Assembly (NCBI GenBank): GCA_029781795.1
Contig: JAKOWB010000276.1
Span: 62,001 to 126,000 of the forward strand
DNA length: 64,000 nt
Direction of reading: 5' to 3'
From: Pseudomonadota bacterium
GTDB taxonomy: Bacteria; Pseudomonadota; Alphaproteobacteria; Kiloniellales; JACOMY01
Shown: positions 40,427-49,983 of the stretch, piece after piece
Layout: the number at the start of each line of letters is the position of its first letter
Position numbering within the stretch: the stretch's first letter is position 1
The notes under the pieces: generated by a model
The model's input: the letters and a program-made list of their open reading frames with translations, nothing else
Told to the model about the DNA's origin: nothing
Databases searched by the model: none
Program-made: the position numbers and the translations under genes

Positions 40427-42133
40427 ATGACTTCGGCAGATGAGACGGTAACCCACAGCAAGGTCAAGGAAGCACTGGATCTGGTCGGTCAGGGCCGGAT
40501 GGGCCGGCGCGAGTTCGTGCGCATCGCCGCGATGCTCGGCCTTGCCGCGTCCTCGGCCTACGCCCTGGCAGGCCTGCCCGTGCCGGCCGCCGCCGCCGAC
40601 AACCTGCCCTTCCCGGCGGACGACCCCGCGGCCAAGGCCGGCGGCACGCTGCGTGTCGCCATGCTGGTGCAGAAGATGGAGGACCCCGCGACCTACACCT
40701 GGGGCGAGATGGCGAATCAGACGCGCCACATCCTCGAGTACCTCACCACGACCGGTCCGGACAATGTGACTCGCCCGATGCTGGCCGAGTCCTGGGAGGC
40801 CTCCGACGACCTGACGACCTGGACCTTCCGCATCCGGCCGGGCGTGAGCTGGCACAACGGCGAGACGCTGAACGCCCGGCAGGTGGCGTGGAACCTGGAG
40901 CGCTGGCTGGATCCCGCCCTCGGCTCGGGCAACCGCGGCCTCTCGACCTTCGCGGCGATGCTGCGCGACACCGACAAGAAGGACGACAAGGGCAAGGTCA
41001 TCAAGGAGACGATCCCCGGCTCGATCGAGCTGGTGGACGACATGACGCTTCGCCTGCATCTCTCGAAGCCGGTCCTGTCGGTGCCGCAGGACCTGAACAG
41101 CTATCCCTGCGCGATCGTGCACCCCTCGTTCAAGGCACCCTTCTCCGACAATCCGATCGGCACCGGCCCCTTCACGCTCGCCGAGCTCAAGGTGGGCGAG
41201 CGCTGCATCCTGAAGCGCGTGACGCAGACCGGCGACGGCAAGGCCTTCGCCTATTGGGGCGGCAAGGTCTATCTGGACGAGATCCACTACTACAACTTCG
41301 ACAACGACAACCAGCTGACGGCCTTCGCGTCGGGCGACGTGGACGCGATCTACCAGCTCGGCATCGAGCAGATGGAGCTGGCCAAGTCGCTGGACCAGCA
41401 GATCCTCTCGGCGAAGACCTCGCAGAACCTCTTCCTGCGCATGCAGGTGGACCAGAAGCCCTTCGACGACATCCGCGTGCGCCGGGCGATCCAGCTTGCG
41501 GTCGATCGCGCGGCCATCAACGCGCTGGTCTATCCCGACAACCGCGATGTCGGCGAGGACCATGCCGTGGCGCCCGTCCACCCCGAGTACTTCGCCCTGC
41601 CGCCACTGCGGCGCGACGTGGTGGCTGCCAAGGCACTGCTGGCGGAGGCTGGCCACGCGGGCGGCCTCGAGATCACGGTCGACTGCGGCAATACCAACGG
41701 CCCATGGCAGCAGACCGTCTGCGAGGCGGTGCGCGACCAGGTCAAGGACGCCGGCATCACGCTGAATGTCAATGTCATGCCTTCGTCGAAGTACTGGGAG
41801 GTCTGGAAGACCACGGCGTTCGGCGCCACGGCCTGGACCCACCGTCCGCTCGGCACCATGGTCAACTCGCTCGCCTTCCGCAGCGGCGTCAACTGGAACG
41901 AGACGCATTTCGCCGACCCGGCCTTCGACGCGGCGCTGGACGAGGCGGAGGGCCTGCTCGACGTCGAGGCACGGCGCGCGAAGATGCAGGCGGTGGAAAA
42001 GATCCTGCAGGACGCCGCGGTCGTGATCATGCCGATCTGGCGGCCGATCTACTTCATCGTACGCAAGGACGTGCACGGCTATCCGGCGCACCCGACGCAG
42101 GACCACCTCTTCAACAAGGTCTGGATCGGCTGA
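40427..42133 (+). CDS. ABC transporter solute-binding protein, family 5, with Tat signal
   Basis: 568-residue extracytoplasmic family 5 (dipeptide/oligopeptide/nickel) binding protein. The leader contains GRREFVRIAAMLGLAASSAY, a twin-arginine signal, with cleavage likely after PAAAA near residue 57, so it is exported folded. Mature landmarks: AGGTLRVAMLVQ, WTFRIRPGVSWHNGETLNA, IGTGPFTLAEL, VRRAIQLAVDRAAINAL. ATG at 40427 has GGGGAGAGG upstream. It serves the permeases at 43516-45488. Followed by a strong hairpin, so it may be expressed more than downstream genes. The ligand may be a betaine-like compound by context. Confidence 0.93.
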   Translation: MTSADETVTHSKVKEALDLVGQGRMGRREFVRIAAMLGLAASSAYALAGLPVPAAAADNLPFPADDPAAKAGGTLRVAMLVQKMEDPATYTWGEMANQTRHILEYLTTTGPDNVTRPMLAESWEASDDLTTWTFRIRPGVSWHNGETLNARQVAWNLERWLDPALGSGNRGLSTFAAMLRDTDKKDDKGKVIKETIPGSIELVDDMTLRLHLSKPVLSVPQDLNSYPCAIVHPSFKAPFSDNPIGTGPFTLAELKVGERCILKRVTQTGDGKAFAYWGGKVYLDEIHYYNFDNDNQLTAFASGDVDAIYQLGIEQMELAKSLDQQILSAKTSQNLFLRMQVDQKPFDDIRVRRAIQLAVDRAAINALVYPDNRDVGEDHAVAPVHPEYFALPPLRRDVVAAKALLAEAGHAGGLEITVDCGNTNGPWQQTVCEAVRDQVKDAGITLNVNVMPSSKYWEVWKTTAFGATAWTHRPLGTMVNSLAFRSGVNWNETHFADPAFDAALDEAEGLLDVEARRAKMQAVEKILQDAAVVIMPIWRPIYFIVRKDVHGYPAHPTQDHLFNKVWIG

Positions 42134-42179: not shown

Positions 42180-42218
42180 CCCTTCTGCTGCCATCCAGCG
42201 CAATCGGAAGTGCCAGAG

Positions 42219-43481
42219 ATGTCCGTCGTCACCCTGCCCGGCTTCACCGACCCCCGCAAGAAGGCCTACCTGAACGCCGACGGCGCAGACCGGCCGATGA
42301 GAAGCGCGATACCGCCCGAGACGCTGCGACGCGCGCGCGCCTACCGCCTTGGCCGCATCCGCCAGCAGCTGGCGCTGCACGACTGCGCCGCCATCCTGCT
42401 CTACGATCCCCTGAACATACGCTATGCGCTCGATGCCTGCGCCATCCAGCTCTGGGCCACGCACAATGCCACGCGCTCGGCCCTCATCCTGAACGGCGGG
42501 CCCGCCATCGCCTTCGAGTACAAGGGCATGGAGCATCTGATGGCCGATCTCGAGACGATCGACGAGGTCCGCCCCAACATCTCCTGGTTCTACGGCGTCG
42601 TCGGCGACAGGATCGACCGGCAGGTCGAGGCCTGGGCCGACGAGATCGATGCGCTGCTGCGGCGGCATGGCGGCGGCAATCGTCGTCTCGCGGTCGACAA
42701 GCTCGAGCCGCTCGGCGTCGCCGCGCTGCAGCGGCGCGGGATCGTCCTGGTGGAAGGACAGCGGCTGACCGAGACCGCGCGCTCGATCAAGTCCGCCGAC
42801 GAGATTGCCCTGATGCGCTGGACCATCAGGGTCGCCGAGGCGGCGATGGCGCGGATGTACCAGCACTCGGTCCCCGGTCGCAGCGAGCAGGAAATCTGGG
42901 CCGAGCTGCACTACGAGAACATCCGCTCGGGCGGCGAGTGGCTGGAAACCCGCATCTGCGTCGCCGGGCCCCGCACCAACCCCTGGTACCAGGAGGCCTC
43001 GGACTACATCTGCCAGGCCGGCGACATGCTGGCCTTCGACACCGACATGATCGGCCCCTATGGCTACTGCGCCGACCTGTCGCGCGCCTGGACCATCGGG
43101 CACACGCGCATGACCAACGCCCAGCGTGACCTCTATCGGACGGCACTCGAGCAGATCGAGCACAATCTCTCGGTCATCCGGGCCGGCATGAGCTTCGAGG
43201 AGTTCAACCGGCGCCAATGGCAGATCCCCGAGCGCTATCTCGCCAACCGCTACTCGCTCGCCGCGCACGGTGTCGGCATGGCGGATGAATGGCCCGTGGT
43301 GCTGCTGCCGCCGGACGCCGCCCACCAGCATGGCGGCGGCTTCGAAGAGGGCATGGTGATCTGCGTCGAGAGCCTGATCGGCGAGCAGGGCGGACGCGAG
43401 AGCGTGAAGCTGGAAACCCAGGTGCTGGTGACCGACCGCGGCGCCGAGCGGCTGGACAGCTTTCCCTGGGAGGAAGTCTGA
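42219..43481 (+). CDS. M24-family metalloenzyme resembling DMSP lyase DddP
   Basis: 420-residue pita-bread-fold protein with an N-terminal creatinase-like domain (about 40-185). Metal ligands are D274 and D276 in FDTDMIGPYGY, D286, H350 in AAHGVGMADEWP, E384 and E399. As I recall, DddP uses D295, D297, D307, H371, E406 and E421. The offset is constant (21, then 22), and the D-x-D pair is unlike common Xaa-Pro peptidases. Start chosen at ATG 42219 (GGAAG eight bases upstream); an in-frame GTG at 42210 is possible. It may be a lyase for DMSP or another betaine, a creatinase-type hydrolase, or a peptidase. Placed between a binding protein and its permeases. Confidence 0.8.
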   Translation: MSVVTLPGFTDPRKKAYLNADGADRPMRSAIPPETLRRARAYRLGRIRQQLALHDCAAILLYDPLNIRYALDACAIQLWATHNATRSALILNGGPAIAFEYKGMEHLMADLETIDEVRPNISWFYGVVGDRIDRQVEAWADEIDALLRRHGGGNRRLAVDKLEPLGVAALQRRGIVLVEGQRLTETARSIKSADEIALMRWTIRVAEAAMARMYQHSVPGRSEQEIWAELHYENIRSGGEWLETRICVAGPRTNPWYQEASDYICQAGDMLAFDTDMIGPYGYCADLSRAWTIGHTRMTNAQRDLYRTALEQIEHNLSVIRAGMSFEEFNRRQWQIPERYLANRYSLAAHGVGMADEWPVVLLPPDAAHQHGGGFEEGMVICVESLIGEQGGRESVKLETQVLVTDRGAERLDSFPWEEV

Positions 43482-43515: not shown

Positions 43516-44466
43516 ATGGCGCGCCTGATCTTCGAGCGCCTGCTGCAGATGCTGCTGATCATGGCGCTGACCTCGCTCTGCCTCTTCGCGCTGTTCGACA
43601 GCGACAAGTTCCGCCTGCAGATCGCCAACGCCGAGCTCGGCAACTTCGGGCTGGCCACCATGAGCGAGGCGGACTACCAGGCCTGGCTGGAGCGGAAGGG
43701 GCTGACCGTTCCCTTCTTCGATCGCTACCTGCTGTGGCTGGGCGATGTGTCGCGCGGCGACCTCGGCCAGTCCTTCGAGAAGAACGCCGAGGTCTCGACA
43801 CTGATCGGCGAACGCCTGGCCAATACCGCGGTTCTGGCCGCCGTGGTCTTCGCGGTCATGATTCCCCTGGCTCTGACGCTGGGCATCGCCGCCGGCATGC
43901 GGGAGGGCTCGCGCCGCGACCGGGCGATCTCCATCTTCTGTGTCGGCACCACGTCGTTTCCCGAGATCGCCACCGCCATCGTGCTGACGGTGGCCTTCGC
44001 CCTGGGGCTGGGCTGGCTGCCGGCCAAGTCGGCGATGATCGCCGGCTGGGACTGGCGGCAGGTGATCCTGCCGGCGGCGACGCTGGTGCTCTACGACTTC
44101 GGCTACGTGGCGCGGATGACGCGCGCCTCGATGATCGAAGTGATGACGACACCCTTCATCCGCACCGCGATCCTCAAGGGTCTGCCCTATCGCCGCGTGA
44201 TCCTGAAGCACGCGCTGCGCAACGCCATGATCGCCCCCTTCACCGTGATCGTGCTGCAGCTCAACTGGCTGCTGTCGGGCGTCGTCGTGGTCGAGGTCTT
44301 CTTCGACTATGCCGGCTTCGGCAAGCTGCTGCTCGACGCCGCGCTGTTCGGCGACATCTACGTCATCCAGGCGGCCACGCTGGTCGCGGTCGTCGTCGCC
44401 GTCGCCTCGCAGATCATCTCCGACATCGGCTACATCCTGCTCAATCCCAGGATCCGGTTCGGCTAG
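43516..44466 (+). CDS. ABC permease, DppB/OppB type
   Basis: 316-residue inner-membrane permease with the N-terminal helix MARLIFERLLQMLLIMALTS, a periplasmic stretch (about 35-95, GDVSRGDLGQSFEKNAEV) and the BPD_transp_1 domain. Its EAA-like loop is FIRTAILKGLPYRRVILKHAL. About six helices. Length is typical for DppB. Starts 34 bases after the M24 stop; the second permease follows two bases after its own stop. No ATPase gene is in the cluster. Confidence 0.92.
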   Translation: MARLIFERLLQMLLIMALTSLCLFALFDSDKFRLQIANAELGNFGLATMSEADYQAWLERKGLTVPFFDRYLLWLGDVSRGDLGQSFEKNAEVSTLIGERLANTAVLAAVVFAVMIPLALTLGIAAGMREGSRRDRAISIFCVGTTSFPEIATAIVLTVAFALGLGWLPAKSAMIAGWDWRQVILPAATLVLYDFGYVARMTRASMIEVMTTPFIRTAILKGLPYRRVILKHALRNAMIAPFTVIVLQLNWLLSGVVVVEVFFDYAGFGKLLLDAALFGDIYVIQAATLVAVVVAVASQIISDIGYILLNPRIRFG

Positions 44467-44468
44467 CC

Positions 44469-45488
44469 ATGACCCTGCTCGCCCCTGCGACCGGAAGCGG
44501 TCAGGCGCTGCTGCGCCGGATGAGCCGTCCGGCCACGCTCGTCGCGCTGTTCGCCGCCATCTGGCTGCCGCTGCTCGCCTACGTACTCGACGGCGGAAGG
44601 GAGGTCACGCGCCCGGCCCTGCTGATCGCGGTGCCGTCGAGCCTGCTGCTCTACCTGGCGCTGCTGGCCGCCTGGCAGGAGTCGGGCGTGGCGCGCTTCG
44701 GCCTGACGATCGTGATGTTCTGGATACTGGTGGCGGTCAGCGTTCCCTTCCTGGGGTTGATCGACCCGAACAAGCCGATCGCCCCCTTCGCCCTGCCCTG
44801 GAGCGAGAAGTCCGGACATTTCTTCCCGCTGGGCGCGGACCTGAAGGGACGGGACATGCTGGCCCGGATGCTCTGGGGCTGCCAGCGGGTCCTGGTTTGG
44901 GGCATCAGCGCCACGGCCGTCGCCTATGCCATCGGCGTGATGCTCGGCCTGGCCGCCGGCTACCTGGGGGGCTGGTGGGATCGGATCATTTCGATGATCG
45001 GCAACGTCATTCTCTCCTTTCCCGTGATGGTGCTCTTCATCCTGATCCTGAACTACATCGGGGCCAGCGGCTTCAACATCATCGTCGCGGTGACCTTCGC
45101 GTCCTCGCCGGCGATCATGCGGATCGTGCGCGGCCTGGCACTCGACCTGCGCACGCGGGAATTCGTGGCCGCGGCGCAGACCCGCGGCGAAGGCCGGCTG
45201 CGCATCATGCTTGTCGAGATCCTGCCGAACGCGCGGGGGCCGCTGATCGTCGATGCCTGCCTGCGCCTCGGCTACACCACGGTGGCCATCACCACGCTAA
45301 CCTTCCTCGGACTTGGCCTGCAGCCCCCGGACGCGGACTGGGGGCTGATGATACGCGAGGCCGCCAAGGCGGCCCTGCTGTGGAAGTTCTCCTACATGCT
45401 GATGATCCCCGCGCTCGCGGTTTCCAGCCTGATTCTCGGCTTCAACCTCATGGCTGACGGCCTGCGCGAAATGAGCCTGAAGGACTAG
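44469..45488 (+). CDS. ABC permease, DppC/OppC type
   Basis: 339-residue permease. The N-terminus has three hydrophobic segments before the conserved block FFPLGADLKGRDMLARMLWG. The transport domain has the EAA-like loop RTREFVAAAQTRGEGRLRIML and ends FNLMADGLREMSLKD, as in DppC. It is somewhat longer than usual because of two extra N-terminal helices (about 20-85). Tightly coupled to the first permease. Forms the channel for the family 5 binding protein; the ATPases must be supplied from elsewhere. Confidence 0.92.
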   Translation: MTLLAPATGSGQALLRRMSRPATLVALFAAIWLPLLAYVLDGGREVTRPALLIAVPSSLLLYLALLAAWQESGVARFGLTIVMFWILVAVSVPFLGLIDPNKPIAPFALPWSEKSGHFFPLGADLKGRDMLARMLWGCQRVLVWGISATAVAYAIGVMLGLAAGYLGGWWDRIISMIGNVILSFPVMVLFILILNYIGASGFNIIVAVTFASSPAIMRIVRGLALDLRTREFVAAAQTRGEGRLRIMLVEILPNARGPLIVDACLRLGYTTVAITTLTFLGLGLQPPDADWGLMIREAAKAALLWKFSYMLMIPALAVSSLILGFNLMADGLREMSLKD

Positions 45489-45492
45489 CGCC

Positions 45493-47028
45493 ATGACTGC
45501 GGCACATGCCAGGGCCCTGCTGCTGACGGGCCGCGATCTTTCGCCGGAGGCGGTCGCCCTGGCGGCAAGGCCAGGTGGTCGCGTCGCGCTGTCCGGCGAA
45601 GGCCTGGAGCGCATGGCGGCCGCGCGGGCAGTCGTCATGACGGCGATCGCCCATCGCGTACCGATGTACGGCGTGACCACGGGCCTGGGTACCCGCGTCA
45701 GCGAGACGCTCGACGAAGGCGCGCTCACCGCCTTCTCGCGACAGACATTGCGCGGCCGCGCCCAGGCCATCGGCGCGGCCCTGCCGGTCGCCGTGGTGCG
45801 CGGGGCGATGCTCATCCGCGCCAACACGCTGCTGCTGGGCGCCGCCGGCGCGGCGCCGGCCGTCGCCCAGTTCCTCGTCGACTGCCTCAACCGGGACCTT
45901 ACGCCGCTGGTGCCCGAGCTCGGCTCGATCGGCACCAGCGACCTGCTGCCCGCCGCGGTTCTGGGCAGCGCCCTGGTCGGCGAGGGAACGCTGCTCTCGG
46001 CCGATGGCGTGGCCCGGCCAGCAGCCGAGGCGCTCCGTGAGGCCGGCATGGCACCGCTGGCACTCGGCCCGCGCGACGGCCTGGCGCTCTGCGGGCACGA
46101 CGGGCTGTCCGCGGCCATGGCGGCCCTGGGCGTCGCCGAGGCCCGCCTGCTGCTGGGCGCCTGCCAAGCCGCCGCCGCCCTCGCCTGCGAGGGCTTTCGC
46201 GCCAACCTGACGCCGCTGCGGCCGGAGGCCCTGGCCTTTCGGGCGCAACCCGGAGAGGCGAAGGCTGCCGCCGACCTGCGCCGGCTGCTGGAGGGCAGCA
46301 GCCTGTTGCAGCCCGGCCAGGCCCGCCGCCTGCAGGACCCCCTGTCGTTCCGCACGCTGGCCCAGGTGCATGGCGCGGTCCAGGCCGCGCTGGATTTTGC
46401 CGATGGCGTGGTGCGCGCCGAGATCAACGGCGCGAGCGACAATCCGGTGGTGCTGGCGGCCAGCGGCGAAGTGATTTCCAGCGGCAACTTCCACAATCCG
46501 CACCTGACGCTGGCGGGCGATCTTCTGGCACGTGCCCTGACGTTCGCTGCCGCGTTGCAGGCCGCGCGCATCGCCAAGCTGCTGTCAGCGCGCTTCACCG
46601 ACCTGCCGGCCTACCTGGCGCGTCCCGGCGCCGACAGCAACGGCTTTGCCCCGCTGCTCAAGCTGGCGGAGTCGCTGCTCGCCCGCGTGCAGGCCGAGGC
46701 GACGCCGGTGCCGATCTGGCCGAGCATCAGCGCCGACGGCGTCGAGGACGCGCTGACCAACGCGCAGGAGTCCGGACGCAAGCTGCTCCTCGTGACCGGC
46801 GCCTGCCGGCAACTGGCGGCGCTGGAACTCATGGTGGCGGCGCAGGCCGTGGAGCTGAGGGGCCTCGACGGCGGCCTGGCAACCCGCATGCGGCGGCTAC
46901 TCGCCTTCGTTCGCACGCTGGTGGCGCCGCTGCGCGAGGACCGCCCGCTGGCCGGTGAGTTGACGTCTTTGGTCGAGGCGGTCGCGGCTGGCCGTCTGCG
47001 CGACCTGATGGATGAAACCGCTGCCTGA
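45493..47028 (+). CDS. Aromatic ammonia-lyase (HAL/PAL) family protein with degenerate MIO motif
   Basis: 511 residues, clearly of the histidine/phenylalanine ammonia-lyase fold: YGVTTGLGTRVSE (Y59 matches HAL Tyr53), NGASDNPVVLA, SSGNFHNPHLTLAGD, QDPLSFRTLAQVHGA. The prosthetic-group motif, ASG in G-S-V-G-A-S-G-D-L, reads GSIGTSDLLP here: Thr148-Ser149-Asp150, with the Gly apparently missing. The HAL Asn195 position (LALLNGT) reads LALCGHD, and HAL Tyr280 (QDPYSLR) is Leu284. These losses suggest it is not a normal MIO ammonia-lyase. Lies four bases after the permease stop and overlaps nothing else real. It could be a MIO-free lyase, a binding protein, or a relative of ergothionase. Function unknown. 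Confidence 0.85.
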   Translation: MTAAHARALLLTGRDLSPEAVALAARPGGRVALSGEGLERMAAARAVVMTAIAHRVPMYGVTTGLGTRVSETLDEGALTAFSRQTLRGRAQAIGAALPVAVVRGAMLIRANTLLLGAAGAAPAVAQFLVDCLNRDLTPLVPELGSIGTSDLLPAAVLGSALVGEGTLLSADGVARPAAEALREAGMAPLALGPRDGLALCGHDGLSAAMAALGVAEARLLLGACQAAAALACEGFRANLTPLRPEALAFRAQPGEAKAAADLRRLLEGSSLLQPGQARRLQDPLSFRTLAQVHGAVQAALDFADGVVRAEINGASDNPVVLAASGEVISSGNFHNPHLTLAGDLLARALTFAAALQAARIAKLLSARFTDLPAYLARPGADSNGFAPLLKLAESLLARVQAEATPVPIWPSISADGVEDALTNAQESGRKLLLVTGACRQLAALELMVAAQAVELRGLDGGLATRMRRLLAFVRTLVAPLREDRPLAGELTSLVEAVAAGRLRDLMDETAA

Positions 47029-47074: not shown

Positions 47075-48631
47075 ATGCAAGACGACAGCGTCACCACCCC
47101 GTCGCGGCGCAGTGGACGACAGCGCAACCTGAACGCACGCGCCACCGTCGCCATTGCCCAGCGCCCCTGGCAGCAGCCGCGCTCTCGGCTGGCGCCGGTC
47201 GAACTGCTGTCGACCGACGAGCTGGAAAGCATTCATCTCACCTCGCTGCGCATCCTCGAGGAGATCGGCATCGACTTTCTCTCCCCGGCCGCACGCGAGA
47301 TCGTACGCGAAGCCGGCGGGACGACCCTGCCGGGGTCCGAGCGGGTGCATCTCGACCGGCGGCTGGTGGAGTCGCTGGTGGCCAAGGCGCCGCCCTCGTT
47401 CCAGCTGCACGCGCGCAATCCGGAGCGCAGCCTGCAGGTCGGCGGCGGCAGTACCTTCTTCTGCTGCGTCGCCAGCCCGCCCAACTGCCAAGGGCTGGGG
47501 CAGCCCCGCCATCCGGGCACGCTGCCGGACTTCCGCACCTTCCTGAAGCTCGGCCAGCAGCTGAACATCATCCACGCCTTCGGCGGCTATCCGGTCGAGC
47601 CGTCGGAAATCAATGCGCGGGTACGCCACCTGCTCTGCCTGGCGGACCTGGCCAGCATGACCGACAAGGTCTTCCACGCCTATGCCCTCGGCCGGGAGCG
47701 CATCCTCGACGCCATCGAGATCGTGAAGATCGTGCGGGGTATCGACGAAGAGCGGCTGGCGCGAGAGCCAAGCTTCTTCACGGTCGTCAACTCCAGCTCG
47801 CCGCTGCGATACGACAAGCCGATGCTGGAAGGCGCCATCGAGATGGCGCGGCGCAACCAGCCCGTGGCCTACACGCCCTTCACCCTCGCCGGAGCGATGG
47901 CGCCGATCACGCTGGCCGGCGCCCTGGCACAGCAGAACGCCGAGGTGCTTGCCGGCGTCGCCTTCAGCCAGATGGTGCGGCCGGGCACGCCCTGCCTCTA
48001 TGGCGCCTATACCTCCAACGTCGACATGCGCTCCGGCGCGCCGGCCTTCGGTACGCCGGAGTACGCCAAGACGACCCTGATCAGTGGGCAGTTGGCACGC
48101 CGCTATCGCCTGCCCTATCGCGCGTCCAACGGCAACGCGGCGAACGGCCCGGACGCCCAGTCGGTCTACGAGTCCGCCATGTCGCTCTGGAGCGCGATGC
48201 TGGCCCAGAGCAACCTGATGATGCATGCCGCCGGCTGGCTGGAAGGCGGGCTCTGCTCTTCGTTCGAGAAACTGGTGATCGATGCCGAGATGCTGCAGAT
48301 GATCGCCGCCTTCATGGAGCCGACGCCCATCACCGAGGAAACCCTGGCGCTGGATGCCATCCGCGATGTGGGCCCCGGCGGGCACTTCTTCGGCACGCCG
48401 CATACGCTTGCACGGTACGAGAGCGCGTTCTACGTGCCCATGCTTTCGGACTGGAGCAACTATGGACGCTGGCAGGAGGGCGGCGCGCAGGACGCCTTTA
48501 CCCGCGCCGGCGAGATTGCCCGGCGGCTGATCGACAGCTACGAGCCGCCGCCGCTCGCCCCAGATCGCGCGGATGCGCTGGCGGACTTCGTCGCCCGCCG
48601 CACGGCGGAGGGCGGAGCACCGGCCGACTGA
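47075..48631 (+). CDS. Trimethylamine/glycine-betaine methyltransferase (MttB superfamily, non-pyrrolysine)
   Basis: 518-residue MttB-family protein. Typical blocks: SLRILEEIGIDFLSPAARE, KAPPSFQLHARNPERSLQVGG, YTPFTLAGAMAPITLAGALA, APAFGTPEYAKTTL, MHAAGWLEGGLCSSFEK, VGPGGHFFGTPHTLARYESAF. No in-frame TAG occurs, so pyrrolysine is absent, as in glycine-betaine-type (MtgB-like) relatives. ATG at 47075 has AAGGAG eight bases upstream. The enzyme would transfer a methyl group from a quaternary amine to a corrinoid protein, yet no corrinoid-protein or MtbA-like gene is in the window. Supports a methylated-amine theme for the cluster. Confidence 0.92.
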   Translation: MQDDSVTTPSRRSGRQRNLNARATVAIAQRPWQQPRSRLAPVELLSTDELESIHLTSLRILEEIGIDFLSPAAREIVREAGGTTLPGSERVHLDRRLVESLVAKAPPSFQLHARNPERSLQVGGGSTFFCCVASPPNCQGLGQPRHPGTLPDFRTFLKLGQQLNIIHAFGGYPVEPSEINARVRHLLCLADLASMTDKVFHAYALGRERILDAIEIVKIVRGIDEERLAREPSFFTVVNSSSPLRYDKPMLEGAIEMARRNQPVAYTPFTLAGAMAPITLAGALAQQNAEVLAGVAFSQMVRPGTPCLYGAYTSNVDMRSGAPAFGTPEYAKTTLISGQLARRYRLPYRASNGNAANGPDAQSVYESAMSLWSAMLAQSNLMMHAAGWLEGGLCSSFEKLVIDAEMLQMIAAFMEPTPITEETLALDAIRDVGPGGHFFGTPHTLARYESAFYVPMLSDWSNYGRWQEGGAQDAFTRAGEIARRLIDSYEPPPLAPDRADALADFVARRTAEGGAPAD

Positions 48632-48656: not shown

Positions 48657-49586
48657 TCAGGACATGACGTCCTGCAGGCGCTCGGGCAGGAAGCTGCCCG
48701 CCAGCTTGGCCAGCGCATCGGCCTGAGGCGTCAGCGGTCCGCCGCGGCGGCCATAGAGCGCGATGGTCAGCGGCTCGCAGGGATCGGAGATCGGACGGTA
48801 GACCAGGCGTCGCCCGTCATAGCTCGTCGTCACCGCCGGCAGCAGATAGGCGATGCCGAGTCCGACGCCGTTGCCGATCATGCTGCACATCATCTCGAAG
48901 GAGTTGACATCGATGATCCGCCGCGGGCTGTGCCCCGCGACCGTGAAGAGCGACAGCAGCTGCTCCTTGCCCGCGGGTTCGTCGACCACTACCAGCGGCT
49001 GGCTGGCCAGCTCCGCCAGCGACATCGTTCGGTTCGCCGCCAGGCGGTGGGTCGAGGGCAGCAGCGCTCGCGGCTGCAGCGCCATCACCGGCGTGATCAT
49101 CTCGGCATCGCCCAAGGCGATGTTGTAGGTGAGCGCCAGATCGACCCGCCCCGACAGCAGGGCCTCGTTGATCTCGCCGAAGCCCGAGAAGAAGGGCAGC
49201 AGCTGGCAATTCGGGTAGAGCTGCTCCCACCGCCGGATCAGCGGCGTCATGCAGATCGGCGCCAGGTACCAGTAGCAGCCGAGCCTGCAGACCCCGTCGA
49301 GCCCGCTGGGCCGGCCGGCGCCAAGGTCGAGCAGCTGGTCGACCTGTTCGAGAATGCCGCGCGCCCGGCTGAGCACCTCGGCCCCGAAGGCGGTCAGGCG
49401 GACGCCATCGGCGGCCCCGCGCTCGAACAGCCGCTGGCCCAGGCTCTCCTCGAGCTTGGCGAGCGCGCTGGAGATGGCGGACTGGGAGATGTGCACGGCG
49501 CGCGCGGCGGCCGTGATGCCGCCCTTGTCGGCGATGGCCACCAGGTAGGTCAGCTGTGTCAGCGAAATCCGCATCGGCGGCAGCAT
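48657..49586 (-). CDS. LysR-family transcriptional regulator
   Basis: 309-residue LysR-type regulator with HTH SQSAISSALAKLEESLGQRLFER near residues 30-55 and a LysR substrate domain (VCRLGCYWYLAPICMTPLI, NGVGLGIAYLLPAV). Start taken at ATG 49586 (MLPPMRISLTQL) because AGGCGG lies eight bases upstream; an ATG at 49574 (MRISLTQL) is also possible. Convergent with the MttB-family gene (25 bases between stops). A likely regulator of the cluster at 38.3-48.6 kb or of the leftward genes, though it is divergent from neither promoter. Effector unknown. Confidence 0.93.
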   Translation of the reverse strand: MLPPMRISLTQLTYLVAIADKGGITAAARAVHISQSAISSALAKLEESLGQRLFERGAADGVRLTAFGAEVLSRARGILEQVDQLLDLGAGRPSGLDGVCRLGCYWYLAPICMTPLIRRWEQLYPNCQLLPFFSGFGEINEALLSGRVDLALTYNIALGDAEMITPVMALQPRALLPSTHRLAANRTMSLAELASQPLVVVDEPAGKEQLLSLFTVAGHSPRRIIDVNSFEMMCSMIGNGVGLGIAYLLPAVTTSYDGRRLVYRPISDPCEPLTIALYGRRGGPLTPQADALAKLAGSFLPERLQDVMS

Positions 49587-49983
49587 AGGTCTTGCCGCCT
49601 GAGGCACGGAAGTAGCGTTCTGGCGGGGCATCGCGCCGGCCGCCGTCCGGCCAGATGAATCAAGCTGTCGATTCTGCCAAGCCTTCGCGGCTCGACCCGC
49701 CCCGGGGGAGGCTTCGCTCCTACTCCGCAGGTGTTCCTTATCAATGAGTTAACGATCGTCGAGGCGATGCTTCATGCAAGCGTCTCCTGCACGTTCCGCT
49801 GGAGCCAGCCGTCGTTCCGGCCCCCTGGATTCTGCCGCTGTCGAGGACGGCCCGCCGCAGTTCCGGACTCAACGATAGGCCGGCAGGTCGGCGCCAAGGC
49901 CCCGTTTCACCCCCTGTCGATCAACTGGCAGCGCACCTCTGCAAGGCGACCCTGCTCGACGGCGGCAGCGGCATGGACTGCGG
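49587..49983. other. Intergenic region without a recognised gene
   Basis: About 400 bases between the divergently placed LysR start and the DsrE-like stop. It contains an A+T-richer patch at about 49735-49755 (TTCCTTATCAATGAGTTAACG) that may hold the LysR promoter region. A short open frame from 49731 has no ribosome site and no family resemblance. No tRNA, repeat or convincing terminator seen. Confidence 0.5.

Follow-up and report, generated by a model that had tools for sequence, protein, structure and literature searches.

What does a protein of the aromatic-amino-acid-lyase fold do when the loop that holds Ala-Ser-Gly in histidine ammonia-lyase (HAL) is one residue short? The question is raised by a gene in a 64,000-nucleotide stretch of an alphaproteobacterial genome, here called the window. 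The first-pass annotation had taken its product for a repurposed scaffold which had lost its motif and become fixed in a methylated-amine operon, perhaps as a MIO-free lyase or as a binding protein, with a ligand resembling histidine or a betaine. The MIO-free lyase is the part of this proposal that is upheld here.

The lyase-fold protein and its active site

The open reading frame is uninterrupted from ATG to stop. Both the frame and the surrounding operon are intact, and a pseudogene was therefore ruled out. Residues 16-473 correspond to the Pfam family Lyase_aromatic (PF00221, E 1e-109). An AlphaFold (AF2) model of the protein has a mean pLDDT of 91.6 and a pTM of 0.92, and the fold superposes on HALs with 1.6-2.9 Å over ~500 residues. 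The gene and the positions discussed below are:

45493..47028, + strand: MIO-free (Gly-deleted) protein of the aromatic-amino-acid-lyase fold, 511 aa, proposed betaine/trimethylamine-lyase (PF00221, ergothionase match, AF2)
45757..45759, + strand: R89, column of the ring-recognising HAL His83 (alignment)
45934..45942, + strand: T148-S149-D150, what is left of the MIO loop, a residue short of Ala-Ser-Gly-Asp (alignment)
46093..46095, + strand: G201, column of HAL Asn195 (alignment)
46324..46353, + strand: R278..R287 (RLQDPLSFR), with the same QDPLSFR in ergothionase (alignment)
46660..46662, + strand: K390, column of ergothionase Lys384 (alignment)

The window lyase was aligned with 17 HAL-type sequences and ergothionase. 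Its loop reads GSIG-TS--DL, whereas true HALs have GSVG-ASG-DL. The T-S-D reading with a deleted Gly, proposed from the sequence of the window, is thus borne out. The same alignment confirmed the other residue assignments made at that stage: HAL Asn195 is replaced by G201 and Tyr280 by L284, while Tyr53 (Y59), Arg283 (R287) and the GNFH segment (331-334) are kept. Glu414 is also retained, as E418. The His83 column holds Arg in the window lyase and in groups F1-F3, and His in ergothionase and most HALs. R278 is invariant across the MIO-free rows and absent from HALs. Against the HAL profile TIGR01225 the protein scores 311 bits, below the cut-off of 539. It differs at ten otherwise near-invariant positions, for example R398 (Glu elsewhere) and T148 (Ala elsewhere). 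Compared with HutH (P. putida 1b8f and others), to which it is ~31% identical, the window lyase shares the fold, Tyr53, Arg283, Glu414 and GNFH; it differs in the absence of ASG, so that MIO is not expected, and in the replacement of Asn195, Tyr280 and His83.

Orthologues and kinship with ergothionase

The same one-residue deletion, together with the change of Tyr280 to Leu or Ile, was found in ~20 orthologues that are 47-57% identical to the window protein; most of their many source genomes belong to the same order, a few lie outside it. A sequencing or assembly error hiding ASG, such as the three-base error considered at first, was ruled out on this ground. Nor is the motif lost in this protein in particular, as had been supposed: the whole clade lacks it. 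The orthologue loops read A-S-D, A-G-D, A-A-D or G-G-D, with A-G-D in several close orthologues, and where the loop contains no serine the MIO methylidene cannot form. Equally short loops without Tyr280 occur in a Paraburkholderia/Bosea/Mesorhizobium group (Q-S-D), in Treponema denticola ergothionase (E-G-D) and in further groups, and nearly all short-loop groups, ergothionase included, carry QDP[LI][SC][FLI]R. At the motif sites the window copy stands apart in just two residues: T148, where 19 of 20 orthologues have Ala, and G201, where the others have Asn or Ser. The Lys384 column is Lys in the window protein and in every window-clade orthologue with sequence there, and in none of the HALs.

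Ergothionase, an ergothioneine trimethylamine-lyase, is the nearest solved relative of the window lyase, at 28% identity. The first-pass annotation had named it for alignment without mentioning that it is MIO-free. It is the best sequence match in the PDB (6s7j) and ranks first in a Foldseek search with the AlphaFold model; in VIA-align it ties with HALs and aminomutases. Ergothionase (6s7j/6s7q) and the window protein have in common the fold, a short loop ending in Asp, QDPLSFR, R278, the Lys384 column and the MIO-free state. They differ in the loop (E-G-D versus T-S-D), at ergothionase His84 (Arg89 here) and at ergothionase Lys64 (Val69 here, with Arg68 beside it). Position 68 is R or K across the window clade, and Gln in a few members. 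Lys64 and Lys384 we take to be among the essential residues of ergothionase. According to a 2026 paper the enzyme has no MIO, and it is regarded as rare and isolated (PMC13405746).

In the tree, one branch separates the MIO-free from the MIO rows (SH-aLRT 100), and the same split was obtained with the motif columns removed (SH-aLRT 99). A tree that puts ergothionase with the MIO enzymes passes the AU test (p 0.088), and some branches are long; MIO was therefore likely, but not provably, lost only once. The deletion and the Tyr280 change are common to the orthologues and ergothionase, and the window protein is therefore an ergothionase-like MIO-free lyase and not a decayed HAL. The subfamily that has Arg in place of HAL His83 but retains Lys384 of ergothionase is new. 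As HAL His83 is Arg89 here, recognition of an imidazole must differ from that in HAL and ergothionase, and from Arg89 the subfamily is predicted to hold the ring or acid group differently.

The genome of the window (G000) contains further lyase-fold genes. A fourth Gly-deleted lyase (L022, C364:27296-28270) has the loop GTVGEADI and a segment NRGGG that resembles NRGVG of ergothionase; its contig carries none of the seven MttB genes of the genome. Very divergent paralogues on contigs C417, C209, C263 and C219 (L023, L024, L080, L081) read CPGE, SAGE, ASGE and SEGE at the MIO loop, so that Glu follows the MIO position, and share QAP[VI]SxR. PF00221 was matched by L023, L024 and L081, the three that were tested, and on C209 an MttB gene lies 2.7 kb away.

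Operon, MttB partner and hut-linked sister genes

The window lyase lies among the following genes:

40427..42133, + strand: family 5 extracellular solute-binding protein (PF00496, E 7e-74)
42210..43481, + strand: DddP-like M24 protein, an onium-lyase relative (NF043017; PDB 4rzy/4b28)
43516..44466, + strand: ABC permease (BPD_transp_1)
44463..45488, + strand: ABC permease (BPD_transp_1), ending 4 bp short of the lyase start
47075..48631, + strand: MttB/MtgB-type methyltransferase without pyrrolysine, 518 aa (PF06253, E 6e-193)
48657..49631, - strand: LysR-type regulator, convergent with the operon (PF03466/PF00126)

The gaps are operon-like, with 4 bp between permease and lyase and 46 bp between lyase and MttB. 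For the latter gene an alternative upstream start at 47012 is possible. The window MttB matches 500 of the 500 positions of PF06253 (641.9 bits) and has no in-frame TAG; against TIGR02369 (trimeth_pyl) it scores 302 bits, below the cut-off of 525. It thus belongs to the non-pyrrolysine quaternary-amine family, whose member MtgB demethylates glycine betaine together with MtgC in alphaproteobacteria (PMC12478193). Glycine betaine methyltransferase is among its relatives of solved structure. The genome of the window encodes a single corrinoid-binding protein of the B12-binding_2 family, on contig C262.

MttB genes were found within ~5 kb of 14 of 32 lyase-fold genes, where 0.55 were expected; the count comes from 10 genomes, some of them close kin, which leaves a P value without meaning. 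In the genome of the window three of the seven MttB genes have a lyase-fold gene no more than 3 kb away. The closest homologues of the window MttB are the MttBs that adjoin the sister, hut-linked lyases. When it was searched against eleven genomes, eight of which have an MttB linked to a hut-type lyase, the best match was the lyase-linked MttB in seven of the eight (in G130 tied with a second MttB), and in the eighth (G006) an MttB on the contig of the lyase, 12 kb off. From these matches lyase and MttB look like a co-inherited pair, and the window pair like a divergent copy. Co-location counts and pairing test together rule out a chance neighbour. In the open-access literature we found no description of an MttB/MtgB paired with a MIO-free lyase, or of its substrate in such a pair.

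MttB-family genes also occur ~0.3-2.3 kb from canonical MIO-type HAL-like genes (G000:C262, G002:C59, G009:C46, G054:C306 and G055:C173).

Six genomes from four families have the sister lyase in one cluster with hutI and hutF (G002, G009, G028, G054, G006 and, on contig C419, the genome of the window, whose hut-type paralogue is found on contigs C345/C419). In five of the six hutU is part of the cluster; in G006 it lies elsewhere in the genome. Both hutI and hutF of G002 exceed their curated cut-offs. Compared with a hut cluster as known, HutU, HutI and HutF are present alongside the sister branch, whereas the MIO-free lyase, an OCD/mu-crystallin protein, a fatty-acid-desaturase-like protein and, often, MttB are added and the canonical HAL is located elsewhere. 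A DAO oxidase and a phosphonate-type binding protein are occasional members. Sister genes in hut clusters with MttB, together with a nearest solved structure that is MIO-free, favour the lyase reading of the first-pass annotation. No hut genes linked to the window copy itself were found.

The idea that the lyase had settled in a methylated-amine operon is not supported. Hut-linked branch aside, the closest orthologues lack an MttB and have varied surroundings, among them valyl-tRNA synthetase, class III aminotransferase, amidase and OCD genes. Their neighbours gave no clue to the substrate except the recurrent OCD protein.

An OCD/mu-crystallin protein adjoins lyases of both branches (L056, L122, L129, L130 and the hut-linked loci), and these copies are 62-92% identical to that of G002.

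The proposed reaction and its alternatives

We infer that the window protein catalyses a 1,2-elimination without MIO, as ergothionase does, and that it probably frees trimethylamine or another good onium leaving group from an amino-acid betaine and is paired with MttB (probability roughly 0.6). Trimethylammonium is already a good leaving group, which makes MIO unnecessary. An acid-base set of Tyr59 and Glu418, with Lys390 and an Arg-rich anion site, would replace the electrophilic MIO: the acid-base residues would remove the beta-proton, and Lys390 and the arginines would hold the substrate. Methyl groups, whether from the betaine or from the amine set free, would next be transferred to a corrinoid protein by the MttB/MtgB-type partner. 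For the sister branch, urocanate is the natural input for HutU, and the most likely substrate, as a best guess, is therefore hercynine (histidine betaine), converted to urocanate and trimethylamine. The urocanate would be degraded further by HutU, HutI and HutF. A description of hercynine breakdown by such a lyase was not found in the open-access literature. The window copy, a paralogue, has an ABC importer and a DddP-like enzyme of its own, and its substrate is likely a related onium amino acid.

The DddP-like neighbour bears on the nature of the leaving group. Genes of this kind adjoin Gly-deleted lyases in three contexts (the window, G046 and G349), and the window M24 protein aligns with DddP through the whole metal and active-site region. 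This would suit a MIO-free lyase acting on a sulfonium, for example a DMSP-like one, a secondary amine or a substrate with an acidified beta-carbon, with a leaving group other than trimethylamine. However, quaternary amines are the substrates of the family to which the MttB/MtgB partner belongs, and the nearest relatives of this partner are hut-linked. The genome of the window contains six DddP-like genes, which weakens the link between DddP and lyase, as one neighbour may be there by chance. We regard such a leaving group as unlikely.

Against NF043017 the window M24 protein scores 388 bits, below the DddP cut-off of 600. The DddP-like genes beside Gly-deleted lyases lie at 42210-43481 in the window, L084:9105-10349 and L125:8294-9511; the first two were tested and are below the DddP cut-off.

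A catalytically dead scaffold, in which the lyase fold now serves for binding or regulation, would explain why the MIO loop is gone, Asn195 has become Gly and ten near-invariant positions are changed in the window copy. It is improbable, because Tyr59, Arg287, Glu418, Lys390 and R278 are retained, the deletion is the norm of the family, ergothionase shows that catalysis is compatible with it, the frame is intact and the operon is tight. The ergothionase-type residues thus tell against the mere binding protein of the initial proposal. Least probable is an ammonia-lyase for histidine or an aromatic amino acid in which T-S-D still cyclises to MIO, or which works poorly without it: a Thr-Ser pair followed by Asp remains and the protein superposes closely on HALs, but the loop is one residue short with no Gly to cyclise, orthologues with A-G-D and G-G-D have no Ser at all, scores are far under HAL cut-offs, and a canonical HAL that has both ASGD and Tyr280 is encoded in this genome at C262.

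The ergothionase-kind reading thus describes a real, well-conserved MIO-free lyase. What is new is the subfamily and its linkage to hut and MttB, not an enzyme class. As a tentative extension, the subfamily in which Arg replaces His83 and Lys384 is kept, inherited together with MttB/MtgB, might open a hercynine route that feeds urocanate into the hut pathway, and the duplicated pair in the window might serve a different onium amino acid with its DddP-like enzyme and own importer. If the hut-linked branch does turn hercynine into urocanate, this would be a gene-level route for the breakdown of histidine betaine, and histidine betaine would be an environmental source of trimethylamine. Ergothionase is now joined by a broad array of MIO-free lyases, four Gly-deleted copies of which occur in one alphaproteobacterial genome, where a family search would call them weak histidine ammonia-lyases. 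If the proposed reaction is true, an enzyme fold sheds its built-in cofactor once the substrate supplies the leaving group.
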